The position numbers and the translations under genes were made by a program. A DNA stretch of 39,970 nt from a virus. Location: the IMG/VR virus record IMGVR_UViG_3300031576_000152, positions 1 through 39,970 of that record, one strand, 5' to 3'. The notes under the pieces were generated by a model that saw only the letters and a list, made by a program, of their open reading frames with translations, had not been told where the DNA came from and searched no databases. Shown here in pieces: positions 128-35,527 of the stretch; positions within the stretch are counted from its first letter, which is position 1; each line of letters starts with the position of its first letter.

Positions 128-374
128 GTGGAATGACATCTTGAACGGTGCGCTAAAAGTGTCTTTCAGTACATTGAGACTCGGATTTTTTACGTTTGAC
201 TGGTTCGTGAAGTCGCCAAACAACTTGGCTAAGTTCATGGATGGCAACTATGAAGAACGACGATCTACTGGAAGCATGGGGACCCCCGGGAAGTACCGGG
301 ACCCCAGATGGCACGATTCCAAGTTCAAAGCCCTCAGCCAAGATGGAAAACAAAGCCCAACAGAGCCATTCTGA
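1..374 (+). CDS. Replication initiator, lambda O-like (C-terminal part; gene continues from the right end)
   Basis: The reading frame is open from base 3 with no start at the left edge and ends at a stop at 372-374. Joined to the right end of the window (39844 equals 1), it forms one gene of about 900 nt beginning at 39318 (or 39300). This part holds the C-terminal domain. The segment FDWFVKSPNNLAKFMDGNY is the conserved ending of many phage O-like replication proteins, where a WxxDFDWL-type stretch precedes a pattern like NfxkilEGxY. The ATG at 48 is therefore internal. The following helicase loader gene overlaps its end, the usual initiator-loader pair. The protein would bind origin DNA and recruit the helicase and its loader; this role is inferred from family and context. 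Confidence 0.8.
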   Translation, partial: DFDKEVVHWNAIAKRMGWPTVRTKTKIRELHLRKRLEERPTLWNDILNGALKVSFSTLRLGFFTFDWFVKSPNNLAKFMDGNYEERRSTGSMGTPGKYRDPRWHDSKFKALSQDGKQSPTEPF

Positions 375-990
375 GCCACGCTGGTACCCAGAAGGTCCCA
401 GACCACCAATGGCTTCTCAAGGTCTCAACCCAGAGGCAGCCAATGGCCTTGCTGGGGTCGATACGTGGAAGGTCACCATCTTAAGGCATAAGCGCTGTGA
501 AAGGCTTGGCATCCCAAAGCTCTACTGGGACAGCTCCCCATCGTATTGGGGACAAAAGGTTTGGAATCCGCCCTTCGGTCGGAGAAACTTGCTGATTTTA
601 GGGCCCAATGGGGTTGGCAAGAGCTGCTTTGCGGCATGTCTGGCGCGGTATGATGGCTGTCTTGCTTATTGGTACTCCATGCCATGGCTGCTAATGCGCT
701 ATGACGCTCGCTTTGGGGCTAGAGAGGATACCCAGTGCGAGCTCATTGAGGAAGTGACTGGGCTTCGAGCGATCGTGCTAGACGATGTGATGCGGGTGCG
801 GCAGACTCCTACTGGACTGTGGTTGGTCTACAACATTCTCAACCGAAGATTAGAAGCCCAGCTCATAACCATCGTTACAACGGATAAGAAGTTGCAGGAG
901 ATCGATGCTATCGACCCAGCTATCGCCAGCAGGCTTGCATCGTTTGACCGTATTGTGCTAAAAGGGCCGGACAGGAGGCTTGAAGCATGA
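241..990 (+). CDS. DnaC-like AAA+ replicative helicase loader
   Basis: 249 aa. An AAA+ ATPase core occupies about residues 115-245: Walker A GPNGVGKS (121-128), Walker B IVLDD (178-182), a sensor-1-like TIVTTD (210-215) and a candidate arginine finger in IASRL (R231). This layout matches the DnaC/IstB family, which loads the ring helicase at an origin. The first 70 residues are Pro/Ser-rich and low in complexity. The ATG at 241 overlaps the initiator frame by 134 nt and has no clear Shine-Dalgarno, so the true start could be at 250, 343 or 409; any of these keeps the ATPase domain. It directly follows the initiator and shares ATGA with the next gene, so the three are probably translationally coupled. 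Confidence 0.85.
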   Translation: MATMKNDDLLEAWGPPGSTGTPDGTIPSSKPSAKMENKAQQSHSEPRWYPEGPRPPMASQGLNPEAANGLAGVDTWKVTILRHKRCERLGIPKLYWDSSPSYWGQKVWNPPFGRRNLLILGPNGVGKSCFAACLARYDGCLAYWYSMPWLLMRYDARFGAREDTQCELIEEVTGLRAIVLDDVMRVRQTPTGLWLVYNILNRRLEAQLITIVTTDKKLQEIDAIDPAIASRLASFDRIVLKGPDRRLEA

Positions 991-1469
991 TCTTCATCGG
1001 TATCGATCCCGGAGCCAAGGGTGGAGTGGCATGGATTGAGGAGCGCCTGGGATTGGACGGTGAGATTCTGACTACCCAATGCTTTCCATTGCCAGAAACA
1101 GAAAGAGATATCTTCGGTCTAATCTGGAAAGTTGGCATTTTAAAACTATCGGATAAAATGCTTTGCATGTGCCTTATCGAAAAGGTGCATTCCATGCCGA
1201 AGCAGGGAGTGGCGAGCTCTTTTAAATTCGGGCGGAATTACGGCTTTCTTCGTGGTCTTCTCGTAGCGCTTGAATTGTGCTTTGACGAGGTAACTCCTCA
1301 GCGTTGGCAAAAAGCCATGGGCTGTTTAAGCCATGGTGATAAGAACGTCACCAAGCAAAAAGCCCAGCAGCTTTTCCCGACTATGAAAATCACCCACTCG
1401 ACGGCAGACGCTCTTCTAATTGCCGAGTACTGCCGGCGCACACACAGTAACGATCCTCTATCGTGTTAG
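987..1469 (+). CDS. RuvC-like Holliday junction resolvase
   Basis: 160 aa. The N-terminus MIFIGIDPGAKGG is the first RuvC/RNase H-fold strand with acidic D7. A second acid is E65 in CLIEKVHSM and the third is D141 in HSTADALLIAEY, matching the acidic positions of RuvC-type metal-dependent resolvases; the TPQRWQK segment (103-109) and the Lys-rich stretch before the last acid are also typical. It would cut four-way junctions formed during recombination or rolling replication and help debranch DNA before packaging. The start overlaps the loader stop as ATGA. A 19-bp dyad element lies over its last codons. Confidence 0.85.
   Translation: MIFIGIDPGAKGGVAWIEERLGLDGEILTTQCFPLPETERDIFGLIWKVGILKLSDKMLCMCLIEKVHSMPKQGVASSFKFGRNYGFLRGLLVALELCFDEVTPQRWQKAMGCLSHGDKNVTKQKAQQLFPTMKITHSTADALLIAEYCRRTHSNDPLSC
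1447..1465. repeat. 19-bp dyad element, copy 1
   Basis: GTAACGATCCTCTATCGTG occurs here and again at 2367-2385. It contains an inverted repeat ACGAT-(CCTCT)-ATCGT, that is a 5-bp stem and 5-nt loop. This copy spans the last codons of the RuvC-like gene, just before the lysis-type leader. It could be an operator for a small regulator or a hairpin in the mRNA whose CCTCT loop could pair with an SD sequence; neither is proven. Confidence 0.55.
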
Positions 1470-1625: not shown

Positions 1626-2051
1626 ATGAAATTGCGGTTGATCATCATTCTTGCATTGCCGTTTTTATTCGCCTGTTCTCTGAACCCAGAGATCCAGCGG
1701 GACTTTGATGCACGCTTCACCAAATTAGAGCAGGAGCAAGCCGCACTATTGGAGCAAGACCCAACGGCGTGGACTTCAGCTCGGCTAGCGGAGATCAAGT
1801 CGGAACAGGAGAACTTGAGGGCTGAAGTCGAGGCCACTAAGGCTGCGGCTTTCACCGAGCGCGCCACCAAGGGGATTGAGGTGTCCGATGTGTTTCTGGG
1901 GGCCCTTGCGCCGGCGATGTTGCCTTTCTTCCCAGCTGCCGGGGGAGCACTGGCTGGAGTTGCCGGGCTTCTTGGGCTAATCACTGGGAAAAAGAAGAAC
2001 GGAGGACTTGGGCTAATCACTGAGAAAAAGAAGAACGGAGGAATCGCGTGA
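1626..2051 (+). CDS. Lipoprotein with C-terminal hydrophobic segment (possible unimolecular spanin)
   Basis: 141 aa. A hydrophobic signal ends in a lipobox LFAC with Cys17 as the predicted lipidated residue. Residues 18-85 are charged and Glu/Ala-rich with coiled-coil character. Residues about 88-118 (FLGALAPAML...) are hydrophobic and are followed by Lys-rich tails. An outer-membrane lipid anchor, a periplasmic coil and a C-terminal inner-membrane segment are the architecture of u-spanins (T1 gp11 type), and the length fits. Prolines and glycines in the segment and the absence of a recognised endolysin keep this tentative; a plain phage lipoprotein is the alternative. The SD GAGGGGGA precedes the ATG. 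The stop overlaps the next GTG start (GTGA). Confidence 0.65.
   Translation: MKLRLIIILALPFLFACSLNPEIQRDFDARFTKLEQEQAALLEQDPTAWTSARLAEIKSEQENLRAEVEATKAAAFTERATKGIEVSDVFLGALAPAMLPFFPAAGGALAGVAGLLGLITGKKKNGGLGLITEKKKNGGIA
1971..2042 (+). repeat. 36-bp tandem duplication at the lipoprotein 3' end
   Basis: Two adjacent 36-bp units, 1971-2006 and 2007-2042, differ by one base. Each encodes LGLIT(G/E)KKKNGG. The unit ends in AACGGAGGA, which in the second copy is the ribosome binding site of the GTG-started gene at 2048, so the duplication copied the SD along with the C-terminal codons. Confidence 0.9.
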
Positions 2052-2338: not shown

Positions 2339-2723
2339 ATTCTTCATGAAACCAACCCGAGTCTACGTAACGATCCTCTATCGTGACTTTCTCGGAATCT
2401 CTCCCCATCCCCGGGCGGTCGCCCACCGAGAAGGCAAAGACGATATATCGCAAGAGGCGGGCAAGATGCTTTACCGTGGTGGAAATTGGCTTGAAGCCGT
2501 GAAAGTTCAGAAGCTCTGCAATGAAGGAATGCGCAGGGACCGGCTCGCTTTGATCTTGGCCGCAAGGCTGCAAGCCAAGATCTTGAAACAGCAGCGAGCA
2601 AAGCACTTGAAATTCCTGCGTGATCTTTCCATTCAGAAGAACCAAACCCAATTCCAGTTTTGTGAACATCCATCTTTGCTAGGGAGATGTGAGATACGTA
2701 TCGGAAAGACTTTTGATACCTGA
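2328..2723 (+). CDS. Hypothetical basic protein
   Basis: 131 aa from the ATG at 2328, which overlaps the end of the membrane protein gene; a longer reading from TTG at 2316 is possible. No family was recognised. The middle (GGNWLEAVKVQKLCNEGMRR and on to QQRAKHLKFLRDLS) is basic and probably helical. There is no strong SD. Open frames also exist on the minus strand here, but strand continuity with the genes on either side favours plus. The second 19-bp dyad element lies inside it. It sits in the lysis-type region, but no lysis function can be read from the sequence. Confidence 0.45.
   Translation: MKPRFFMKPTRVYVTILYRDFLGISPHPRAVAHREGKDDISQEAGKMLYRGGNWLEAVKVQKLCNEGMRRDRLALILAARLQAKILKQQRAKHLKFLRDLSIQKNQTQFQFCEHPSLLGRCEIRIGKTFDT
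2367..2385. repeat. 19-bp dyad element, copy 2
   Basis: Exact second copy of the element at 1447-1465 with the same ACGAT-(CCTCT)-ATCGT inverted repeat, here inside the hypothetical gene at 2328. The two copies are 920 bp apart and flank the lipoprotein and membrane protein genes. Confidence 0.55.
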
Positions 2724-2873
2724 ACCACCAGGCCCGGCCATTCAACGAAATGCACAGACTCTTTGTGATTCGTTTCGCTGTATCCTACCTTTCATGGATC
2801 AGTCCTTGATCGAACTCTACTTCAACCATTTCAAGTGCTGAATGAACCTCTAAACGTCAGCTGGGCCTGGTCC
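2705..2873 (+). promoter_or_regulatory. Structured leader element, copy 1 (upstream of the PL6 lyase gene)
   Basis: Similar to 4568-4655. A 36-nt 5' block (2705-2740, AAAGACTTTTGAT then CTGAACCACCAGG) matches the second copy at about 30 of 36 positions. Arms 2727-2738 and 2860-2871 form a 12-bp stem with one G-U pair (core CCAGGCCC with GGGCCTGG). A CCTCTAAAC box sits at 2847-2855. The 121-nt loop holds two further hairpins, AACGAA...TTCGTT near 2744-2775 and GATCA...TGATC near 2797-2811. It occupies the 238-nt gap before the lyase gene. It is a probable RNA leader or processing element. Confidence 0.6.
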
Positions 2874-2961
2874 TTTAACCACGTGGCTTTTCTCCACTTC
2901 ATTTCTGGCGCTCCCCTGACTCCCCACGTCCCCCAGGGGGGCGCCTTTAAAAGATAGGAAA

Positions 2962-4524
2962 ATGATGATGATCTTTACGGCTTGTCTTGTGGCTCTTTTA
3001 TCGCAAGCCCAGTCAGTCAGTGGTCTTGTCGTTACGCCCACCAGGCGCCTCGACGGCAAGCATGACTTAGCAGTCTCATGGACTGGCACAGCCGCTGCTT
3101 ACCGGGTAGTCCTAGAACGTCCAGCGCCATTGATTGCCTTACGGCGTCTGACGACTGCCAAGCGAACGATTTTTAGCGGCCAACCCAATGGAAGTTATCA
3201 TTTGCGTGTTGAAGCCTTGGCCATCATCGACGCTACGGAGACGCGCTACATCGTTCTTCCTTTGGCTGCGCCCCAGCCCCCCTTTGAATTGCATGGATCT
3301 CTGTCGGCATTGCAGGCCGCCATTACGGCCGCGCCCCCAGGGCGAGAACTCGTGCTTGGAGACGGAGACTATACCATGTCTGGGGCGATCAAGATCAGCG
3401 GCAAGACCGATCTTGTGGTCAGATCGAACTCGGTAGGAGGGGTGACCCTCAAGGGCACTGGTGGCATTTTGATTGACAACTGCTCGCGGGTCACAATCAG
3501 CGGCTTTGATGTTCTGGCTACTTGGGACTGGAACCCACCGGATCATCTCTATTCAATCGTGATCCACGGTTCCGATAACGTCCGGGTGACTCGGCTGAAG
3601 ATGCACTGTGCCGAACCGCCAGGAAGTTACCCCTACTGGGTCTTCGTTGACTCGGTAGGCGATGGGAAAAGGTCGGAGCACGTCAGGATCGACCACTGTG
3701 AATTTTACGGGAAAGTCGAGCAGGGCTCTTACATTGTGGTTGAAGGGGACAAGGGCGTGGCTAAGCAGGTCGTGCAGTACTGCCAGATCGATCACAATCT
3801 TTTTCGCGACGTAGTTGGCTTCGATGCCCAGGGCAACAAGGAAACGATCCGCTATGGCTCATCGTCGATTTCGTCTTCCAATTCAGGCTTCTCAGCCATA
3901 GAGGACAATCTCTTCGAGCGCTGCGACGGCGAGGATGAGATCGTCTCAATCAAGTGCTGCGAGCTCATCGTTCGGAGAAACACCTTCCGCGAATGTGTTG
4001 GGGCCTTGGTGCTCCGACACGGGAGTAGGAGTCAGGCACGTGACAATATCTTCCTTGGGAACAACAAACCCAACACTGGAGGCATTAGGATCTTCGGGGA
4101 TGACCATCTTGTGGATGGTAACTTTTTTGGCAGTCTTGCAGGAACGTCGGCAAAAGCAACTACAGCCATCGCCAATGGAACCGTGGATGTAGATGGTACT
4201 TCGGGGGCCAACAGGGTAGACCGTTTAGTTTACTCTAACAACAAGATCAAGGACTGCGAGAAAGGCATCCAAATTGGTTGGAATAACAGTGGGGCGTATC
4301 CCCTCCCGGTTCGCAATGTCATCGTCAGCGGTAACATCATTTCGCTTCTCGGGTCTGCCGTAGACAACCTATCGGTACCAGCGAGCGTGAACTATTCTGG
4401 CAACGTCTTGGCGGCCGATAAGCCGGGGGTCATACCAACTAATGGGTACATCCTTGATCCCGGGGCCGTCTTCAACACGCCGGCTGGATTATCAGTTTCC
4501 CAGGTCGGCCCACTGGGTCCATAA
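2962..4524 (+). CDS. Secreted PL6-family polysaccharide lyase (alginate lyase / chondroitinase B-like)
   Basis: 520 aa. A Sec-type signal peptide spans about residues 1-21 (MMMIFTACLVALLSQAQSVS). Residues about 22-105 look like a beta-sandwich (Fn3-like) domain and about 110-510 like a right-handed parallel beta-helix. The PL6 core is clear: ETIRYG (294-299), EDE (324-326), IK (K331), LRHG (R352) and GIRIFGDDH (374-382). K331 and R352 are 21 residues apart, and E324/E326 lie 7 and 5 residues before K331. These spacings match those known for the chondroitinase B Lys/Arg catalytic pair and Ca2+-binding Glu residues. PL6 enzymes cleave alginate or dermatan by beta-elimination. The gene is outside the virion operon, has a modest AGGAAA SD, and is bracketed by the two structured leaders. 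It may be a cargo gene; the substrate is inferred. Confidence 0.85.
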   Translation: MMMIFTACLVALLSQAQSVSGLVVTPTRRLDGKHDLAVSWTGTAAAYRVVLERPAPLIALRRLTTAKRTIFSGQPNGSYHLRVEALAIIDATETRYIVLPLAAPQPPFELHGSLSALQAAITAAPPGRELVLGDGDYTMSGAIKISGKTDLVVRSNSVGGVTLKGTGGILIDNCSRVTISGFDVLATWDWNPPDHLYSIVIHGSDNVRVTRLKMHCAEPPGSYPYWVFVDSVGDGKRSEHVRIDHCEFYGKVEQGSYIVVEGDKGVAKQVVQYCQIDHNLFRDVVGFDAQGNKETIRYGSSSISSSNSGFSAIEDNLFERCDGEDEIVSIKCCELIVRRNTFRECVGALVLRHGSRSQARDNIFLGNNKPNTGGIRIFGDDHLVDGNFFGSLAGTSAKATTAIANGTVDVDGTSGANRVDRLVYSNNKIKDCEKGIQIGWNNSGAYPLPVRNVIVSGNIISLLGSAVDNLSVPASVNYSGNVLAADKPGVIPTNGYILDPGAVFNTPAGLSVSQVGPLGP

Positions 4525-4567: not shown

Positions 4568-4655
4568 AAAGATTTTTGATTGCTGAATCACCAGGCTCGG
4601 CTAGTAACCAGTTCTTATACCCTCTAAACTCTTCAACCGTTGGCCGGGCCTGGCC
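4568..4655 (+). promoter_or_regulatory. Structured leader element, copy 2 (upstream of the DHH gene)
   Basis: Second copy of the element at 2705-2873, with the same 5' block (AAAGATTTTTGAT then CTGAATCACCAGG), a CCTCTAAAC box at 4621-4629 and a 12-bp stem, 4591-4602 with 4642-4653, around a 39-nt loop. Relative to copy 1, one pair changes from C-G to U-G and another from G-U to G-C, so pairing is kept while bases differ. It fills the 160-nt gap between the lyase stop and the DHH gene. The shorter loop shows that the stem and 5' block, not the loop, are conserved. Confidence 0.6.
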
Positions 4656-4684
4656 CTTTGAATATCTAAAAGAAAGGATTTCTT

Positions 4685-5632
4685 ATGATGCCTGAGAATC
4701 TCGTGATCTACCATGCCAACTGCTCCGACGGGATGTGCGCTGCCTGGGTGGCGTGGAAGTGCTTCGCTCGACGTGGGGAAGTGGCTGAGTACCGCGCCTG
4801 GAACTACGGCGAGAAACGGAGACTGTCGGCCGAAGACTTCGCAGGGCGTAAGGTCTGGTTCCTCGACTTCTCACTCCCACGTGAGGATCTCATCTTCATC
4901 AAAGAACATGCTAAGGCTCTCATCGTGCTCGACCATCACAAGACCGCAGAAGAAGCGCTTCGTGGGCTTGACTTTTGCACTTTCGACATGGACAAGGCTG
5001 GATGTCGTCTTGCTTGGGAGCATTTTTTTCCAGAAGAAATTCTGCCTCTAAGGCTTGTCAAGTATTGCGAAGATCGCGATCTCTGGCGTTGGAAGCTGCC
5101 GTTCTCTCGGGAAGTCTCGATGATGATTCGGCTCCAGGGCACGAAAGCCCCTGAGGATTTTGTCAAGTGGGAAATCTTTTCGGCGAGGCTAGAAACTGGA
5201 GAGCATCTGAGTTACGGTGGCGCTCCGCTTGGAGATGGGAACCAAGGTCCGCTCGCGAAAGAAGGCGCTGCAATCCTCGCCTCCAATGCGATCATAGAAG
5301 AGCAGCATGTCGAAAGAGCGGTACGTTCCTGCCTTTTTGACCCCAGCGAGCCGCAGTGGACTGGCAGGTACAAAAGCTCGCGACCTCCTTGGGTTGTTTG
5401 GCAATGCAACGCCACTGTGCTTTTCTCCGAAATCGCTGGTAAATTAGCTGAGCGTGGGGACGCCGACTTCGGCTGCTGCTGGTTTGTTCGTCAGGATGGC
5501 CAGTACCAGTACTCGCTCCGCTCCCTGGGCGACTTCGACGTGTCTCTAGTCGCGAAGGCATTCGGTGGAGGTGGGCACAAAGCTGCGGCCGGCTTCGAGA
5601 GCAACCGACTGCTCTTCCGTCTAGTCGATTGA
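4685..5632 (+). CDS. DHH-family phosphoesterase (NrnA/RecJ-like)
   Basis: 315 aa. N-terminal DHH domain: HANCSDGMCAAW (10-21, acidic D15), LDFS (D61) and the DHH triad VLDHHKT (D83-H84-H85), all manganese-binding positions of this superfamily. The C-terminal DHHA1 signature GGGGHKAAAGF (294-304) contacts nucleic acid or nucleotide. The length suits NrnA-type nanoRNA/oligonucleotide or cyclic-dinucleotide phosphodiesterases rather than full RecJ. A phage copy could recycle short oligonucleotides or remove signalling dinucleotides; the sequence does not decide. SD AAAGAAAGGA lies 7-10 nt upstream; ATG 4688 is an alternative start. It follows structured leader copy 2 and is followed by a terminator. 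Confidence 0.85.
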   Translation: MMPENLVIYHANCSDGMCAAWVAWKCFARRGEVAEYRAWNYGEKRRLSAEDFAGRKVWFLDFSLPREDLIFIKEHAKALIVLDHHKTAEEALRGLDFCTFDMDKAGCRLAWEHFFPEEILPLRLVKYCEDRDLWRWKLPFSREVSMMIRLQGTKAPEDFVKWEIFSARLETGEHLSYGGAPLGDGNQGPLAKEGAAILASNAIIEEQHVERAVRSCLFDPSEPQWTGRYKSSRPPWVVWQCNATVLFSEIAGKLAERGDADFGCCWFVRQDGQYQYSLRSLGDFDVSLVAKAFGGGGHKAAAGFESNRLLFRLVD

Positions 5633-5800: not shown

Positions 5801-6034
5801 ATGGAAACCGCCCTCCTTTTGCTGATGGTCGGCCTGAACTGCGTGATCCTCTGGATCGTGTGGGACCACGCGCTCTGGAGCAAGCAGGCTCGTTGGCGCA
5901 AGGACCTCGACAAGAGCCTCAACCACAAGCTCGGCGGAAAGCTCACCGACCTGGCCGTCCACGATCAGGAGCACCTCGCTATCCTGGAAGCCTTGGAAAA
6001 AAGCCTGCAGAAGTCAAGCGATGAGCCCTCCTGA
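5801..6034 (+). CDS. Small membrane-anchored protein
   Basis: 77 aa. One N-terminal membrane helix, residues about 4-21 (ALLLLMVGLNCVILWIVW), is followed by a basic then acidic helical tail rich in Leu, Lys and Glu, a bitopic layout with the tail probably cytoplasmic. No family recognised. It overlaps the next gene by 14 nt and the two are probably co-translated. SD is weak. A lysis-accessory or membrane-remodelling role is possible but unproven. Confidence 0.6.
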   Translation: METALLLLMVGLNCVILWIVWDHALWSKQARWRKDLDKSLNHKLGGKLTDLAVHDQEHLAILEALEKSLQKSSDEPS

Positions 6035-6449
6035 ACGCGACTTGAGAGAATCCATGGAAGAACTACGTTCCAAGATCGCGGAGAGCATCCATTCCACAAA
6101 GGAGCTGGCTCTCTCGATCCGCGAACAGCTAGGCACCGAGCTCGCCTTGATTAGGCAGACGCTCCAGAATCAGGCTGGCGAAATCATTAAAATTGTCGAT
6201 CTCGTACGCGGCGAGGGCAACGGGGAGCATGGAATCGCCGCGCGCCTCATGGGGCTCAAGATGGGCTTTCAGGCGCTTCAGTCTCGTATAGCCGAAGTAG
6301 AATTACAGCTTGCCACTGATACCTCGCGCATGCATGAGTTGGCCGTAATCAAGGCTAAGGGCCGTTGGGCATTACTGGCACGGGCAGTGGGCAGTATTGC
6401 CGGGGTGCTTGGCGGACTGGCTGGGATATTGGCCTTGATCTTGAAATAA
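6021..6449 (+). CDS. Coiled-coil protein with C-terminal membrane anchor
   Basis: 142 aa. Residues about 5-110 are strongly helical with heptad-like spacing (LRESMEELRSKIAESIHSTK; LIRQTLQNQ). Residues about 118-141 (LLARAVGSIAGVLGGLAGIL) form one C-terminal membrane helix ending in LILK. Tail-anchored coiled-coil proteins of this size occur in phage lysis regions (haemolysin XhlA-like or holin-associated), and the previous gene supplies the opposite topology; the pair could act together. Family assignment is not secure. It is the last plus-strand gene before the convergent terminator. Confidence 0.6.
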   Translation: MSPPERDLRESMEELRSKIAESIHSTKELALSIREQLGTELALIRQTLQNQAGEIIKIVDLVRGEGNGEHGIAARLMGLKMGFQALQSRIAEVELQLATDTSRMHELAVIKAKGRWALLARAVGSIAGVLGGLAGILALILK

Positions 6450-17734: not shown

Positions 17735-20008
17735 TTAGATCTCTAAATCAACAACACAACGGATATCAAGCGTAGCTGCCGGAAGAAGCGTAGCTGTACT
17801 ACTGATACGAACATCAATGAGATTATTGGCAGCGAACGTATCGAGGTCTTTGGCTTGAAGGGTGGCCTTGAAAGACGGATTCGTAATATCCAAAACGGCG
17901 GTCAACCCAGTCGTGACGCCTCCAAAGAACACTTCGGCTGTGATAGAACCCGCCGTTACGTTCGCATTCGAGTGTATCGCAATCCCAGTGATAGATCCAG
18001 AACGTAGAGGTATGATCGATTCAGGGTTATTCGTTGCAGCTGTTAATCTCGATGCCTTGACAAGGGATTGACTGATTGCCACGTCATTCTGATAGAACGT
18101 ATCGATGACTTGACGATAGCCACCCTGGACATTTATGTCGCTCGTGAGCGCCGTAAGATCCCCAGCAGTAATGGTAATCCCCCCAGCAGTCACGGTCAAT
18201 CCGCCAGCACTAACCGTAAGGACTCTTGAGAACGTCCCCTTGGCAGCCAGAAATACCGCCTCATCCGGCGTCTGGTTTGGAAGTACAACGCTGAGTTCGT
18301 GGATTCCAGACAAACTGGCATGGGCTACCTGAGCAACGATCCCGGACCCAAGGTAAGCTCGTCCGTTAGAATTCCCATTAGCATACTCATTATTGCAATG
18401 GAGAGCTCGAAATGTTCCAGTAGATGATAAACGAAGGACATTGAATGTCCCAATAGAGCTCTTGCTCCAATTGTAATAAGTATTGCCCGACAAGACCACG
18501 TGCTCGATGATCCGACCAGCACCAAAAGCAAGGGCTATACAGCCTTTGTCCGATTCTCTGATGGTATTTCCACGAAAAGAAAATACTCCAATGTCATAAG
18601 GAGTAGGCGCCGTTCCGGTTTGATTGACCAACCCAACGATCGCACTCTCCGACGTGTTCCCAGTACAGAGAGACATATGATTGCCTTCAATGGAAATCAC
18701 ATCGACGGGTTGATCTGCGCTGCTGACAAGCACAGCATATGAGCAGTTTTCGAAGACGTTCCCACGAATTGACAGACATGATAGCCTATGCCCGGTGATT
18801 ACTGCATCGCCGGATTGGGCCTTGACGCCAATGCCCTTGATAAGACGGCTGTTGGCGACCGTGACCACACTGCTTCCGATTGTGTAAACATTGTTCACTT
18901 CAAGATTCGAGAATGCCTCAAGTTCACAGTCTTCTATGCTGACCTGTTTACAGCGGTTGCAATTGATCGTCGGGACTACAGAGGCTATGCCCCCAGTGCA
19001 AAGAAGATTACTCCTGATCCGACACTGCCGAGCTGATACACTTTGCACGTCTGCACTAGTCCCTCCATCGACATAGAGGCCGATATCAAAGCCGGTTATG
19101 TCCAAAGTGTCTATGGCTACCTTGGTCTGTGCAACAGGTGTCGAAACAAGATAGTCCAACCGAAGCGCCCCCCATTGTGTATCCGACGCAAAATCGGCTC
19201 GCGTCATGGTCAGCCCTGAAACCGAAAAGGGGGCTTGAAACAAGAAAGCATGATGACCCTGTGTGGTCACATTAATCGTTACTGATGATCTGGATTCCCC
19301 AATTATGCGCGTTGGATTGGCAAATGTGACAGCGGTAACAGATGGTGTAGAGACAAGGGTGTACACCCCTTTCGGAAAATATAGAACACCACCTACCGAT
19401 GTAAGGGCCGTCCCCGCTGCCGATATTGCCGCCTTGTCATCCAACCCATCATCTGGAATGGCCCCAAACTCTTGAACATTGATGATCCTTTGGCCAAGAG
19501 AGAACCACTGCGAACCCTGATCCATCCAAAGTCCCCTGGCATCATCGGTAACCCGAGCCAGTCTTCCAATGGTGCTTGCCGCTGGCAACCCCGCTTTGGT
19601 GTAACTGGTGAACTTCGGATTGACCAGATTCCCAAGGGGAGAGATATCTCCTGTCACGCTTAGGCCGCCTGTTCCTTGGATGTCTACTGCTCCGGCATCT
19701 GCCGTGATAATCCTCCCACCATCATAGGCCACATCCAAACTTGAAGCGGCGCTTGTAAGACTCAGGGTACCATCTGTGGCGATCTGCAAAAACTGAGGCG
19801 AGCTCGGCAAGGCCGAGGGCAGCGTCATCGTGTAGCTAGAACCAACAGCGCTTGGAGCTCTCAGACCGACGTACTGATTGCCGTTCGTGACATCCTCAAC
19901 GAAACGGATTTCGCCTTGGTCATCCATACGGAGGATGCGGCCGGCTCCCATCACCAGAATGGCTAACAGGACTACCCAGCCAATTCGTTTTCTGCTAGTG
20001 CGTACCAT
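17735..20008 (-). CDS. Tailspike with pectate-lyase-fold beta-helix
   Basis: 757 aa from the ATG at 20008 (a TTG lies one codon earlier). Residues about 165-215 carry the entry signature of pectate-lyase-superfamily tailspikes: INVQEFGAIPDDGLDDKAAI, then GGVLYFPKGVYTL. After this comes a long right-handed beta-helix with regular turns (IRGNVFENCSY; FRGNTIRESDKG; LSGNTYYNWS) and a beta-rich C-terminal domain. Such proteins bind and usually cleave host surface glycans. Unusually, the N-terminus (SRKRIGWVVLLAILVMGAG) looks like a signal peptide or membrane anchor, where virion proteins normally have a particle-binding domain. Catalytic residues cannot be assigned by eye. Confidence 0.8.
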   Translation of the reverse strand: MVRTSRKRIGWVVLLAILVMGAGRILRMDDQGEIRFVEDVTNGNQYVGLRAPSAVGSSYTMTLPSALPSSPQFLQIATDGTLSLTSAASSLDVAYDGGRIITADAGAVDIQGTGGLSVTGDISPLGNLVNPKFTSYTKAGLPAASTIGRLARVTDDARGLWMDQGSQWFSLGQRIINVQEFGAIPDDGLDDKAAISAAGTALTSVGGVLYFPKGVYTLVSTPSVTAVTFANPTRIIGESRSSVTINVTTQGHHAFLFQAPFSVSGLTMTRADFASDTQWGALRLDYLVSTPVAQTKVAIDTLDITGFDIGLYVDGGTSADVQSVSARQCRIRSNLLCTGGIASVVPTINCNRCKQVSIEDCELEAFSNLEVNNVYTIGSSVVTVANSRLIKGIGVKAQSGDAVITGHRLSCLSIRGNVFENCSYAVLVSSADQPVDVISIEGNHMSLCTGNTSESAIVGLVNQTGTAPTPYDIGVFSFRGNTIRESDKGCIALAFGAGRIIEHVVLSGNTYYNWSKSSIGTFNVLRLSSTGTFRALHCNNEYANGNSNGRAYLGSGIVAQVAHASLSGIHELSVVLPNQTPDEAVFLAAKGTFSRVLTVSAGGLTVTAGGITITAGDLTALTSDINVQGGYRQVIDTFYQNDVAISQSLVKASRLTAATNNPESIIPLRSGSITGIAIHSNANVTAGSITAEVFFGGVTTGLTAVLDITNPSFKATLQAKDLDTFAANNLIDVRISSTATLLPAATLDIRCVVDLEI

Positions 20009-27266: not shown

Positions 27267-29378
27267 TTAGGCAGCCGTAGTCGATGCCGCCGGCATACCT
27301 CCTTTGGCTTCTGGCATCCCTGGAACTTGCGGAGGTCTCGCTTGTTGAACTGGCACCTGCGATGGCTTGGTTGGCTCAGCAGGCCCAGGAAGGCCTCCCG
27401 GAGCCCCATCCTGTGGTCTTCCCCCGAGGTCTTGAGGTTTTCTGCCAGGGATGCCTCCTGGAGCCGCCTGGGCCATTGCAAGCGGATTTGGATAGCCCAG
27501 CGCCATCTGAAGAAGCTGAACCCCTGGGTCCATCATAAGCTGAATGTGGGTCATGACATGGCCGAGGATAGTCGAGACTCGCTTCTGGTCAAGGCGGATC
27601 TCCGGGTCAGAAAGTTTTGCTGCATGTTCTCTTATGTCAAGCACATGGTAGTCAGTGGCCAGTGGAGGCGGAATTTCAGTCCCCTTCATCATGGCCTCGT
27701 TTTCGAGTCTGATCCTGGTAAGGTTGGAACGCTCTGACTCGAAGAGTGGCTCGATGTTTCCGGTCTCGATCAAGGTGATGATCTGGCTAACATCGCGGAT
27801 AAGTCCTTGTTGGACTGCCATTTCGGCGATTTGCATCTTCCCAGCCATGGTGTTGGTCAAGGCATTGCCAGGTTGTGCCATGACACGATCAATCTTCTGC
27901 AGGTCCTCGGAACTGAACGAGACGAGTTCTGCTCGGTTGTGTTCTCCGAGGATGCTCACCACCCGCTTGGTATTGGCATAGCGCTTCAATGTCCGGAGGA
28001 TGTGAGTTCCGAGGTCCTCTTGAAGCATGATGTAGTTCTGGATGAAGGTGGTGGCGAACTGCACCGCCTGGGCATGGATCACCGCAAGCGCTGTGCCGCT
28101 TTTCAGTGACGCTTCTGGCTGGCCCCTGGCGACGGAGTTGATGCCAATGAGATACTCGGCCTGCTGAATAAGGAAGTTGGCGAAGTTGAGAATGCCAGGG
28201 TTCTCACTGAGAAGGTTGAGCGGCTCTGGCTTCTGGTCACTCTGGTAATTGGTCGTGGTATCGTCGATCACCTCGCGATTGAGGGTATCCCCGGTCCTGG
28301 TCCATACCTTGTTGAAGCCAAAATTTTTGTGGTTTGTCAGGGTGGTGCTGATCTCGGCGTTGATCGCTTCGGCGATCCCCTGAATGTCCTCAGCGGGAGA
28401 GTACCCAAAGCAAGTCAGCAAAAGCTCGCCGGCTGCCATTCTGAAGATCGGCAAACCATCGTATGGAAACGGCAAATCGGCGGCCTGGGTGTCCATGAAG
28501 ACTGATTTGGCGCCGGCAAACGCGAAGTGGCGTCCCTGGGGGAGGGCGTCTGTTGGCTTATGGAAGAAGTGCCAGACTGGGATGCGATCTGTCTTCGATC
28601 GTTCGTAGCCGCCGAGGCTGATCGCCAGAAATGGCTCATTGGCCTTGCTGTAGGCATCGACAAGGAGCAGGTCTTCTTTGAGCTCAGGATATCTGGCGAT
28701 CATATCCCAGCGGTTTTCGAAGGTCCGTATCAACGTCCACTGCCACTCTTCCTGGCTTCTACTCACCGGATCGTAGACCACATCAAGGCAGGTAAGATTC
28801 TCGATGTGGAGATCGCCCTCGTAGTCAATGATCGGCTCGATCATGTCGCCGGATTCAGGATCGTAGCTGCCAGGATTCAACCCTTGCGCCTCACCGATAT
28901 TTGGGTTCCAGGGTGCGAAGATGTAGCCGACCTTGAGAACCAGGGCATGCTCAGCGGCAGTCTTGAAGTTGCGCTCGATTCGCTTTTGCTGCTTGTAGTA
29001 CTCAAGGAGTTGGTTCCCGATTCTCGACTGGTCGAGGGACTTCTGGTCGCTGTTGACTGCCTTCGTCTGCCAGCTCACTCGATGTTGGGTCGAAAGATTG
29101 AGGGCATGTTGGATGAGGTTGCGGTAGTGGTTGGCGGTCAGCGCCGCCACTTCGTTCTCTTCGCCAAGGTGCTTGATGGCGAAGGTGGTTGAGTCGAGGG
29201 CCTCCGGGAAGTAGAGGTTGTGGTACATGCGCCAGGAACGGAGAACGGAAGCGAATGCCGAGCTTTCGCGGATAACCTCCCAGAACGAATCGCGGCGCTC
29301 GATGAGATTGGCGACCATCTTCTCTGGGTCTTCTTCTGAGGCCCAGTAGTACTCGAACTGATCTGATTCTCCTGCCAT
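27267..29378 (-). CDS. Portal protein
   Basis: 703 aa, in the size range of podovirus portals. The N-terminal half has helical and wing regions (FWEVIRESSAFASVLRSWRM; HALVLKVGYIFAPWNPNIGE; DVVYDPVSRSQEEWQWTLIR). A middle segment (FGYSPAEDIQGIAEAINAEI) is typical for the portal stem. The C-terminal 90 residues form a Pro/Gly/Gln-rich tail (GRKPQDLGGRPQDGAPGG), perhaps disordered or a barrel connection. It sits between TerL and scaffold. The start has GGAGGACATTGAGAA before ATG, shared with the gene at 10622. Confidence 0.85.
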   Translation of the reverse strand: MAGESDQFEYYWASEEDPEKMVANLIERRDSFWEVIRESSAFASVLRSWRMYHNLYFPEALDSTTFAIKHLGEENEVAALTANHYRNLIQHALNLSTQHRVSWQTKAVNSDQKSLDQSRIGNQLLEYYKQQKRIERNFKTAAEHALVLKVGYIFAPWNPNIGEAQGLNPGSYDPESGDMIEPIIDYEGDLHIENLTCLDVVYDPVSRSQEEWQWTLIRTFENRWDMIARYPELKEDLLLVDAYSKANEPFLAISLGGYERSKTDRIPVWHFFHKPTDALPQGRHFAFAGAKSVFMDTQAADLPFPYDGLPIFRMAAGELLLTCFGYSPAEDIQGIAEAINAEISTTLTNHKNFGFNKVWTRTGDTLNREVIDDTTTNYQSDQKPEPLNLLSENPGILNFANFLIQQAEYLIGINSVARGQPEASLKSGTALAVIHAQAVQFATTFIQNYIMLQEDLGTHILRTLKRYANTKRVVSILGEHNRAELVSFSSEDLQKIDRVMAQPGNALTNTMAGKMQIAEMAVQQGLIRDVSQIITLIETGNIEPLFESERSNLTRIRLENEAMMKGTEIPPPLATDYHVLDIREHAAKLSDPEIRLDQKRVSTILGHVMTHIQLMMDPGVQLLQMALGYPNPLAMAQAAPGGIPGRKPQDLGGRPQDGAPGGLPGPAEPTKPSQVPVQQARPPQVPGMPEAKGGMPAASTTAA

Positions 29379-29394
29379 TTCTCAATGTCCTCCG

Positions 29395-31014
29395 TTAGTT
29401 CAACCTCCCAACAAGGCGTAAAAGTCCATCGCGGCGAACGACCGCATTGGAGCCTGGAACGTGGAAAGTCTCTGGGTTCGTGAAGAGCATCTCATCCGGG
29501 TAGGGGTTCTCACGCCAGTTGGCGACGCGGTGCATGTAGATCAAGGCGGCCAGGGCATCGCAGTGTCCCAGCTGCTTGGAGCGCTCGAACTCGGTGCGCT
29601 GCTTGTTCCAGATGCCGTTGCGAAGCTGAAAGATCAGGTGGCGGCATCGTCTATGGATCTTGATCTTCCGGCGCTGCACTGTGGTTCGCAGTCCGGCGAT
29701 TGCCGAGTCGCGGTCCCACTTCTCGACGGGTTGGATGTACATGCGATGATCAACGCGGAGGTCATGGAGGGCCTGTTCTTTGAGATCTCCGCGTCTTCGA
29801 AGCGGCATGCCGGGATAAAGCGCCGTCTCTTTCTTCCGCATGGCTTCGGCGATTTCTCCGGTTGACTTGTACCGCGCAACGACTTCATCTTCGACCACAA
29901 GTGTTTGTTTGAGGAAGTCGAGGTAGCCATAGACGACCGCGTTCCAGTCCAGCCATCCGGTATCGAGGATGCTCATGGGCTTGAAGTGTGAAGGGCGTTC
30001 GTAGTCATCGACCACAATGTCGTTTTCCGCTTCAAGGAACTCCGGCACGATCATCTCTTCGGCATCGGTGACGAGCTCGCACTGGGCTTCGCGGCGCCAG
30101 GCGATGGAATCCTTGCTTCCGCAGAAACCAAGGATCATCTCCTGGTCTTCTTTGGTCCAGTCCTTGTTAGCCGATGACGGCATTACCAGGTACTGGCCTT
30201 TACGCATGGCTTCTTTGACGTAGATGTCAACGAAGTCATGAGCTGGGCTCTTCGGTGGGGTCGAGATGAGGAGAAGCTCCGGGTCTTCGCGCTTAACGAA
30301 CTGGAAGCTCAGAACGTGTTTGACGATATAGTCAAGGTTGCGGATGTCCCGGCATTCGTCGAGGCAGACCTGGTCAGAGGCCATGCCGCGAAGGTTGTTC
30401 CCCTGCTCTTCGTTGCATCCGACGATCAGCAAATTTGAACTGAGAGCATTATGGCCCCAGGCTGGATTGTGGAACTTCCAGAGCATGCCCGAGGGCTTCG
30501 GGCGGAGTTCTGGAGGGCAGTCTTCAAGGATGAGGTGGAGATTGGGGACCGCCATGGAACGGCACTGCTTTTCTGTGGGGCCGCCGTATTTGAGCATCTG
30601 GCCAGGATGGCGGAGGGCTGCTTCGCACTTCCTTAGAAGGCAAAGGTAGGTCTTGCCGAATCTCCGATGCATGTTGAGAACTATCGGCTCGGCTGAGCAT
30701 GGATGCTTTTTACGGATGGCTTCTATGGCGTCGTAGACGTGCTGCTGGCCATCTTCGCGGAGCTTGTACTGGAGGTTGGCGCGGAACCAGCTCTCGCGGA
30801 TGAGGTTGTGCCTGGTGGTTGGTTCAGCGGCAACGGTGCAGACTTTTTCGCGGAGGTCGCAATCGGACGAAACGTTCGCTAGAGTCGCCTCTGTCAACTG
30901 GGCATCAAGTGAGCGCTGGGTAGAGCGCCGCCGGAGTTTCTGGCGGCACACTGAGATGTTTCGCTCTCGCTGAAGCATGCGCTGTTTGTCTGAGGGCGTG
31001 GGTGAGGTCTGCAT
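29395..31014 (-). CDS. Terminase large subunit
   Basis: 539 aa. ATPase: Walker A-like HRRFGKT (116-122), Walker B VCLDE (216-220), coupling motif LISTPPKS (249-256). Nuclease, RNase H-like: D351 in SILDTGWLDW, an acidic cluster VVEDE (373-377) and D486 in CDALA. All fit a TerL that pumps and cuts concatemers. The listed ATG (31014) overlaps the probable TerS gene by 110 nt without an SD; M13 at 30978 is an alternative. Codons 45-50 (LANVSS) coincide with a partial copy of the 21-bp dyad element. Packaging mode cannot be deduced directly, but circular permutation suggests headful. Confidence 0.9.
   Translation of the reverse strand: MQTSPTPSDKQRMLQRERNISVCRQKLRRRSTQRSLDAQLTEATLANVSSDCDLREKVCTVAAEPTTRHNLIRESWFRANLQYKLREDGQQHVYDAIEAIRKKHPCSAEPIVLNMHRRFGKTYLCLLRKCEAALRHPGQMLKYGGPTEKQCRSMAVPNLHLILEDCPPELRPKPSGMLWKFHNPAWGHNALSSNLLIVGCNEEQGNNLRGMASDQVCLDECRDIRNLDYIVKHVLSFQFVKREDPELLLISTPPKSPAHDFVDIYVKEAMRKGQYLVMPSSANKDWTKEDQEMILGFCGSKDSIAWRREAQCELVTDAEEMIVPEFLEAENDIVVDDYERPSHFKPMSILDTGWLDWNAVVYGYLDFLKQTLVVEDEVVARYKSTGEIAEAMRKKETALYPGMPLRRRGDLKEQALHDLRVDHRMYIQPVEKWDRDSAIAGLRTTVQRRKIKIHRRCRHLIFQLRNGIWNKQRTEFERSKQLGHCDALAALIYMHRVANWRENPYPDEMLFTNPETFHVPGSNAVVRRDGLLRLVGRLN
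30865..30878 (-). repeat. Core of the 21-bp dyad element inside TerL
   Basis: GGACGAAACGTTCG matches the first 14 bases of the element exactly; the remaining seven diverge (CTAGAGT). On minus it is read ANVSS. Confidence 0.5.
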
Positions 31015-34324: not shown

Positions 34325-34537
34325 ATGTTTCACAACGTTCTTTCGCCAGCCTACGGCCGCGACTACAAATCGGCAGCTGCCGTCAAAGCCGATTGGATCG
34401 ACAACAAGGACTTCATTCTCGAAGATCCTTTAGACCCGTATTGCGGGCAACCCGTAAACAGAGAGCAGTTCCCGGCCGGAAGGCAAGTCAACATCCGGTA
34501 CGCCAACTTCCGGAAGATTGTCGTTCTGACTGTCTAA
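34325..34537 (+). CDS. Conserved small phage protein, paralogue A
   Basis: 70 aa with SD GCAAGGAGAATCCAAA. Sequence starts MFHNVLSPAYGRDYKSAAAV and contains FILEDPLDPYCGQPVNR and VNIRYANFRKIVVL. The SPAYGRDYKS...VNIRYxxxxKV pattern is one I associate with very small early proteins in diverse phages; function unknown to me. About 69% identical (48 of 70) to the next gene, a tandem duplication. Confidence 0.75.
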   Translation: MFHNVLSPAYGRDYKSAAAVKADWIDNKDFILEDPLDPYCGQPVNREQFPAGRQVNIRYANFRKIVVLTV

Positions 34538-34639
34538 AACGTTCTGTGCCCGGCTGGGGAGGCCAGAGTATCCCCAGCACCATGTACGTGCTCCGGCATG
34601 GAGCGCAGCGTTCGGTCCAAACTTGGAACATTGCTACTA

Positions 34640-34873
34640 ATGGACAAAGGAGAACCCAAAATATTTCACAGCGTTCTTTCACCCGCCTGCGGCCGTGACT
34701 ATAAATCAGTTGCTGCCGTCAAGGCAGACTGGTTAGACAATCAGTATTTCATCCTTGAAGACCTCGGGGATTGGTACTGTGGCCAGCCGGTCAACCGGCC
34801 GCAGTTCGCATGTGGCTGGATAGTCAACATCCGATACGACAACCTCAGCAAGGTTGTCATCTTGAAGGCATAA
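34640..34873 (+). CDS. Conserved small phage protein, paralogue B with altered start
   Basis: 77 aa if read from ATG 34640 (MDKGEPKIFHSVLSP). The paralogue's ATG is replaced here by ATA (34661) at the same distance from the conserved AAGGAGAA SD. Translation therefore must use the upstream in-frame ATG 34640 (or 34598), the rare ATA/ATT codons, or be lost. The body (SPACGRDYKSVAAVKADWLD; VNIRYDNLSKVVILKA) is intact, arguing for continued use. Confidence 0.6.
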   Translation: MDKGEPKIFHSVLSPACGRDYKSVAAVKADWLDNQYFILEDLGDWYCGQPVNRPQFACGWIVNIRYDNLSKVVILKA

Positions 34874-34876
34874 ACC

Positions 34877-35527
34877 ATGGCGAAAACAACTGAAAAAATT
34901 ACCGTAGACCTACTAAAAGCCCACGGGGCCTGCGCCAAAGCAGTGGAAGACTTCGGCGTCCTGCACCCCGACGGCTACCAGATCGGGGAGTGGAGCTCCA
35001 CCGAGCAGATCGCGGCTGTAACAAGCCCGCTCCGCTGGTGCATCGGCTGGGCGGTCGGCAGGTGCATTCTTCCCACGGTTGTCCTGCATGGCGCCGATCT
35101 CTCCGGCGCCAACCTAGCCGGCGCTGATCTCGAAGGCGCCGATCTCGACGGAGCCAAGCTAGTCCAAGCCAACCTGGAAAAAACCAAGCTAGTCCGAGCC
35201 AACCTGGCAAACGCCGACCTCTCAGGCGCAAATCTCACTGGCGCCAATCTCACCGGCGCCTACCTGGCCGCCGCCGACCTCTCAGGCGCCAACCTAACCG
35301 CCGCCTACCTGACCGGCGCCAGCCTCTACGGCGCCAAGCTCACCGGCTCCAAACTCTCCGGCGCCAATCTCACCGGCGTTGATCTTGATGGCGCCAACCT
35401 AGCCGGCGCCAACCTAGTCCGAGCCAACCTAGTAAACGCCCATCTAACCCGAGCCAACCTAGCCGGCGCTGATCTCGAAGGCGCCGATCTCGACGGAGCT
35501 AACCTCACCAACGCCATATCGATATGA
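34877..35527 (+). CDS. Pentapeptide-repeat protein
   Basis: 216 aa. The N-terminal 65 residues are ordinary (KITVDLLKAHGACAKAVEDF). From about residue 70 to 214 comes an uninterrupted run of A(D/N)LxG-type pentapeptides (ADLSGANLAGADLEGADLDG), forming a right-handed quadrilateral beta-helix. Family members include DNA mimics such as MfpA and Qnr that act on gyrase, but many have no known role. In an early phage operon, a DNA-mimic or anti-restriction role is plausible, not shown. The acidic charge seen in the first and last coils is balanced by Lys/Arg in the middle. The stop overlaps the next start (ATGA). Confidence 0.85.
   Translation: MAKTTEKITVDLLKAHGACAKAVEDFGVLHPDGYQIGEWSSTEQIAAVTSPLRWCIGWAVGRCILPTVVLHGADLSGANLAGADLEGADLDGAKLVQANLEKTKLVRANLANADLSGANLTGANLTGAYLAAADLSGANLTAAYLTGASLYGAKLTGSKLSGANLTGVDLDGANLAGANLVRANLVNAHLTRANLAGADLEGADLDGANLTNAISI
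35108..35154 (+). repeat. 47-bp direct repeat within the pentapeptide gene (other copy 35453-35499)
   Basis: Bases 35108-35154 and 35453-35499 are identical, encoding LAGADLEGADLDGA at the beginning and end of the repeat domain. Perfect identity over 47 bp, while intervening repeats diverge, suggests recent copying or gene conversion and could allow in-frame deletion of 115 codons. Confidence 0.9.

Follow-up and report, generated by a model that had tools for sequence, protein, structure and literature searches.

A divergent PL6 lyase gene with a probable export signal, encoded outside the structural gene block of a podovirus-like phage

We analysed the whole of the IMG/VR virus record IMGVR_UViG_3300031576_000152, a window of 39,970 nt. 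The two ends of the window carry an exact direct terminal repeat of 127 bp, and the genome of this podovirus-like phage therefore appears complete, at about 39.8 kb. A block of structural genes on the minus strand (6640-31014) encodes a P22-like portal, the major capsid protein, terminase, an SU10-type adaptor and internal-virion-like proteins; both genome ends are transcribed from the plus strand and encode a DnaC-like loader, a Holliday junction resolvase, a PDDEXK exonuclease and RecT. On the plus strand, a gene for a PL6 lyase is preceded by the resolvase gene and by two small ORFs of membrane type, one of them a lipoprotein, and stands ahead of a DHH phosphoesterase (Table 1). It thus lies outside the structural block, on the opposite strand and beside replication genes, in agreement with the original prediction of a phage-encoded lyase outside the virion module. 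The codon usage of the lyase gene resembles that of the other phage genes (r=0.86), which together with the exact terminal repeat ruled out a chimeric assembly and identified the lyase as a resident gene rather than an assembly joint. For the portal and terminase (27267-31014), the sole relative in 50,697 phage records was a phage associated with Silvanigrella (24-27% identity), which places the present phage in a group that has been poorly sampled.

Table 1. Coordinates of the lyase gene, its functional residues and neighbouring or related features in the 39,970-nt window
Feature	Position	Strand	Evidence
DnaC-like helicase loader	241..990	+	phrog_50 E=5e-16
Holliday junction resolvase	987..1469	+	phrog_1770 E=3e-24
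Lipoprotein, LFAC lipobox (possible outer spanin)	1626..2051	+	Sequence only
Intergenic hairpin element, upstream of lyase (CACCAGGCCCGGC ... GCTGGGCCTGGTCCTTT)	2712..2880	+	Fold z -3.95
PL6 lyase ORF, 520 aa, starts ATGATGATG	2962..4524	+	ORF, Pfam, PDB sequence and fold
Signal-peptide-like N-terminus MMMIFTACLVALLSQA, residues 1-16	2962..3009	+	Hydrophobic core against background
N-terminal domain, about 95 aa, residues 17-112	3010..3297	+	Searches and low-confidence model
PL6 right-handed beta-helix catalytic domain, residues 114-512	3301..4497	+	Profile and model
N292, candidate Ca ligand, one-residue shift relative to family (E-2, not E-3)	3835..3837	+	Alignment
E324 and E326, Ca-ligand acids	3931..3939	+	Sequence and alignment of 81 relatives
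K331, catalytic base	3952..3954	+	Sequence and alignment; mechanism PMC4954714, PMC6879350
R352 and H353, catalytic Arg and neighbouring His	4015..4020	+	Sequence and alignment; PMC6879350
Second hairpin element copy, downstream of lyase	4575..4665	+	Fold z -2.71
DHH phosphoesterase, downstream of lyase	4685..5632	+	phrog_4771 E=8e-62
Pectate-lyase-fold protein, within structural gene block	17735..20008	-	PF12708 E=2.3e-9

The lyase gene is flanked by two copies of an intergenic hairpin element that have matching arms, and we did not find this element elsewhere in the genome. Such flanking hairpins would fit either a transcription unit complete in itself or a cassette that brought its own boundaries along when it was acquired; they are not evidence of mobility. 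An Rfam search returned nothing. Integron attC sites were rejected by eye as the RYYYAAC/GTTRRRY pair is incomplete, and the single match to the element in IMG/VR (L103) was an unrelated chance match.

To the 520-aa product, the coordinates of which had been given exactly in the original prediction, the Pfam profile Chondroitinas_B (PF14592) matched at E=1.9e-36 and 126 bits (cut-off of 24 bits). A sequence search of the PDB matched 15 chains, all of them PL6, the best being Pedsa0632 from Pseudopedobacter saltans (7o84/7o7a, 4.8e-35), with chondroitinase B at 6e-17. We built an AlphaFold model of the lyase from a 50-sequence alignment (pTM 0.78); its block pLDDT was mostly 77-98 across residues 111-470, with a few blocks near 70. 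When this model was compared with the PDB using Foldseek, it matched PL6 at E=3e-20 and the top 25 matches were all PL6 enzymes, with a TM to Pedsa0632 of 0.82-0.85 (by target length), while chondroitinase B was found at E about 1e-12 and the P22 tailspike at 1e-4. Among predicted viral structures we found no PL6-like match, the best reaching E=2e-8 and TM 0.4. The predicted fold therefore matches PL6 well ahead of chondroitinase B and any viral tailspike. These matches are far beyond chance, and the ORF is a genuine PL6 lyase, as had been claimed from the sequence. A structure prediction over chondroitinase B had been proposed as a check; the model covers PL6 structures, among which chondroitinase B is a poorer match than Pedsa0632.

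Roles for the Lys, Arg, His and acidic residues of the active site were taken from PL6 biochemistry (PMC4954714, PMC6879350). In an alignment with 81 relatives, K331, R352 and E326 were invariant (81/81), E324 was kept in 76 of the 81 with Asp in the others, and H353 was likewise kept in 76/81. The asparagine ladder, as defined in PMC6879350, is preserved at N279, N316, N340, N362, N387 and N427. By direct reading of the sequence, E324, E326, K331 and R352 are intact and the Lys-Arg spacing is 21, both as originally described.

One irregularity that the original prediction had not mentioned is a shift in the Asn that would complete the calcium site. In 81/81 relatives this Asn, which we assign on the basis of AlyGC and chondroitinase B, precedes the conserved Glu of E-T-I-R by three residues, whereas the sole nearby Asn in the phage lyase, N292, stands two residues before that Glu. 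The phage lyase reads GNKE where a virus homologue (L086, described below) reads GNDKE, and the simplest reading would be a one-residue deletion after the Asn. Judging from the alignment, N292 could still serve as a calcium ligand, although this is unproven; a calcium-independent PL6 enzyme is reported among the literature cited in PMC6879350.

Compared with Pedsa0632, the phage lyase has the same catalytic Lys, Arg, His and acids and is about 25-32% identical, but it differs in having the extra 95-aa N-terminal domain and the shifted Ca-site Asn and in lying outside the clade of that enzyme. In the tree, the lyase was placed among sequences from Bacteroidota and Ignavibacteriota (100/99) and not within the large clade that holds Pedsa0632 and AlyGC, and its position was unchanged after removal of L086. 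The lyase and L086 also grouped together (97/83); this grouping should be distrusted because it joins two long branches. The branch leading to the lyase has a length of 2.3-2.7 changes per column, indicating strong divergence. We recognised no characterised enzyme in the PL6 clade of the lyase, and the substrate cannot be read from the PL6 subfamily (PMC4954714). Alginate is therefore the likeliest guess for the substrate of the lyase, but only a guess.

PL6 was not found in 50,697 named phage records using four PL6 queries (the lyase, L086, L003 and L044), nor was it present in 16 related phage records, most of which were found via the portal and some of which are fragments. The absence from these 16 records makes the lyase gene look accessory among its relatives. 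A single-protein scan for close viral relatives of the lyase found none, and profile scans of IMG/VR, which rest on one or two short motifs and miss diverged members, returned only L085/L086 and L002. We discarded L002 as a viral relative: this 1709-aa ORF resembles a surface protein, is located at the end of a contig and is probably bacterial. L085 and L086 (IMG/VR 3300037070_000739 and 3300037119_003233) are near-identical contigs and represent one virus. Both carry a 1679-aa protein (5476-10512 in L086) that combines a GH46 chitosanase, a PL7 domain, a weak GH16-like match and, as its last part, the PL6 domain; the gene belongs to the tail cluster of a siphovirus, among genes for the tape measure, tail, collagen-like fibre and endolysin, and the product is probably a multi-glycanase virion protein. 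Its PL6 domain is 30% identical to the phage lyase over 406 aa and shares an IRYG motif with it. Unlike the lyase, this PL6 domain is fused to other glycanase domains, is encoded between tape-measure and tail-fibre genes and belongs to a protein without a signal-like start.

At the N-terminus of the lyase, the 12-residue mean hydrophobicity is 2.68, a value reached by 0.06% of the phage's own internal protein segments. The hydrophobic core IFTACLVALL is followed by a possible SPase I site, S14-Q-A16, with small residues, and a signal sequence is present at the start of most bacterial relatives. The n-region is MMM, without a basic residue, and no Lys or Arg occurs ahead of residue 28. A basic n-region is a usual, not absolute, feature of Sec signals, and its absence therefore lowers the Sec claim without excluding it. 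Because an AGGA-type ribosome site lies 2, 5 and 8 nt upstream of the three ATGs, the true start may be M2 or M3. We regard the Sec signal peptide named in the original prediction as reasonable, not proven, with the hydrophobic core and the possible cleavage site in its favour and the n-region lacking Lys and Arg against it. The related claim, that the infected cell would export the lyase, was retained in part: the signal-like N-terminus makes export via Sec likely, but in a diderm host Sec alone would deliver the protein to the periplasm, and release at lysis would be the simpler route to the surroundings.

Between this N-terminus and the catalytic domain, residues 17-112 look beta-rich by eye, with low model confidence in this region. 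They had no match in Pfam, PDB chains or 50,697 phage records, and no similarity was found among the other proteins of this phage, including its virion proteins. An FN3 identity was suspected by eye and dropped, as neither Pfam nor the PDB gave a match even at E 5-10.

The separate pectate-lyase-fold protein that the original prediction had called a tailspike does exist; it is encoded in the structural block (Table 1). A model of this protein built without an alignment was uninformative (pLDDT 36). Its most upstream ATG is located a few bases past the previous gene, behind a GGCGAGG ribosome site, and gives MVRTSRKRIGWVVLLAILVMGAG, a signal-like start that is better than that of the lyase; from this context it appears the likeliest start. 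Either the pectate-lyase-fold protein starts downstream, or it and the lyase both meet the Sec machinery. It had been suggested that these two glycan-directed proteins act at different stages. Both proteins exist, but the suggestion is weakened by the signal-like start of the supposed tailspike, and with such a start on both proteins it cannot rest on the signal peptide alone.

We consider it probable, though well short of assured, that the gene product is a catalytically competent PL6 uronate lyase that is exported via Sec by the infected cell and is not part of the particle. Several lines of evidence led us to this reading: the protein is PL6 by profile, PDB sequence and fold, with K331, R352 and E326 invariant and H353 and E324 kept; its N-terminus is hydrophobic beyond background and most bacterial relatives bear signals; its gene follows replication genes on the strand opposite to the portal, capsid, terminase and adaptor; and there is neither N-terminal similarity to the virion proteins of this phage nor a PL6 in the 16 related records. 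The signal would be cleaved near A16, after which the lyase would fold in the periplasm of a diderm host or outside a monoderm one, with most of it reaching the surroundings at lysis. There it would cut an alginate-like poly-uronate matrix by beta-elimination and open a path for progeny to neighbouring cells, in the manner of a soluble depolymerase, while the N-terminal domain may anchor it to glycan or surface. Several points count against this reading, namely the n-region without positive charge, the N-terminal domain without a recognised family, which could bind the virion, the out-of-register Ca-ligand Asn, which could reduce or abolish activity, the long branch and the presence of PL6 in a tail-cluster protein of another virus.

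The last of these points bears on the possibility that the lyase is a virion component, that is, a separately encoded tailspike or decoration enzyme whose hydrophobic N-terminus is a capsid or tail anchor and not a secretion signal. Podovirus beta-helix lyases are usually tailspikes (PMC5380687, PMC6966330), the L085/L086 PL6 domain lies inside a tail-cluster protein, and a hydrophobic N-terminus is likewise seen in the other beta-helix protein of this phage, whose gene is in the structural block. We nevertheless think a place in the particle unlikely, given that the gene is separated from the structural genes, on the other strand and beside replication genes, that the N-terminal domain resembles no virion protein in this phage or in the phage collection, and that the nearest structures are free PL6 enzymes, not tailspikes. 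The lyase could also be an auxiliary enzyme of metabolism, with export serving to degrade alginate or similar glycans in the environment and so supply carbon to the infected host, as has been proposed for estuarine viral PL6 (PMC12285232); the bacterial relatives, mostly signal-bearing and from Bacteroidota and Ignavibacteriota, provide a setting typical of exported degradative enzymes. This seems quite unlikely, as we recognised no sugar-uptake or uronate-catabolism gene in the window and a lysis-bound infection would leave little time to profit.

A broader proposal joins both beta-helix proteins: the infected cell would export two glycan enzymes, the PL6 lyase from its own hairpin-flanked unit and the pectate-lyase-fold protein, both with signal-like N-termini, and depolymerisation would be a public function that infected cells carry out by secretion, beyond its role in the particle. 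We think this very unlikely. That the PL6 fold has been kept while the lyase became inactive or changed substrate, now binding glycans or cleaving a host-specific capsule that does not resemble alginate, is very unlikely too: the shifted Ca-site Asn with one-residue insertions around it, the very long branch, S300 and some other positions unlike most of the family, and the dermatan lyases also found in PL6 (PMC4954714) would accord with it, but the proton-transfer residues and the ladder are all conserved and, according to PMC6879350, one PL6 enzyme works without calcium.

The phage lyase is not the first viral PL6, being preceded by those reported in 2025 from estuarine viromes (PMC12285232) and by the IMG/VR tail-cluster PL6. 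The estuarine enzymes are also virus-encoded, were modelled on 7O7A and were read as products of auxiliary genes; they cluster with Agarivorans and can be likened to the phage lyase by description only, and that study linked its viral alginate lyases to hosts from Gammaproteobacteria and Bacteroidota. Knowledge of phage alginate lyases dates back to 1977, according to PMC5380687 and PMC12772287, both citing Davidson et al. Alginate lyase activity associated with Azotobacter and Pseudomonas phages (Davidson 1977; Glonti 2010) is summarised in PMC5380687, where the enzymes are entered at 30-37 kDa without a listed sequence. Soluble depolymerases are a recognised class. The capsule depolymerase of TP-84 has a non-virion soluble form that is thought to weaken the capsules of uninfected neighbours (PMC10131341); it differs from the phage lyase in family, being annotated as a glycosyl hydrolase, and the same protein is also found in the virion.

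Phage depolymerases are known mostly as parts of the particle. If the PL6 lyase is stand-alone and exported, as we favour, a single infection would remove matrix on behalf of many particles; this shared benefit could be measured from the growth of halos and from spread through biofilms. Phage genomes very rarely contain PL6, which makes this apparently complete genome a useful test case; its points of interest are the complete genome context, the divergent clade and the probable export signal of the lyase.

We also noted several small genes elsewhere in the window. No family match was found by profile for the lipoprotein upstream of the lyase; the end of its gene contains a tandem pair of 36-bp repeats (1971-2042, 97% identical) that produces a repeated Lys-rich C-terminus. 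At the end of the plus-strand block, two overlapping small ORFs (5801-6449; 77 and 142 aa) have membrane segments and no family match, and are candidates for a holin pair. Two adjoining small ORFs (34325-34537 and 34598-34873) encode similar proteins, as tandem duplicates, and directly precede a gene for a pentapeptide-repeat protein (34877-35527; PF00805 E=1e-66).
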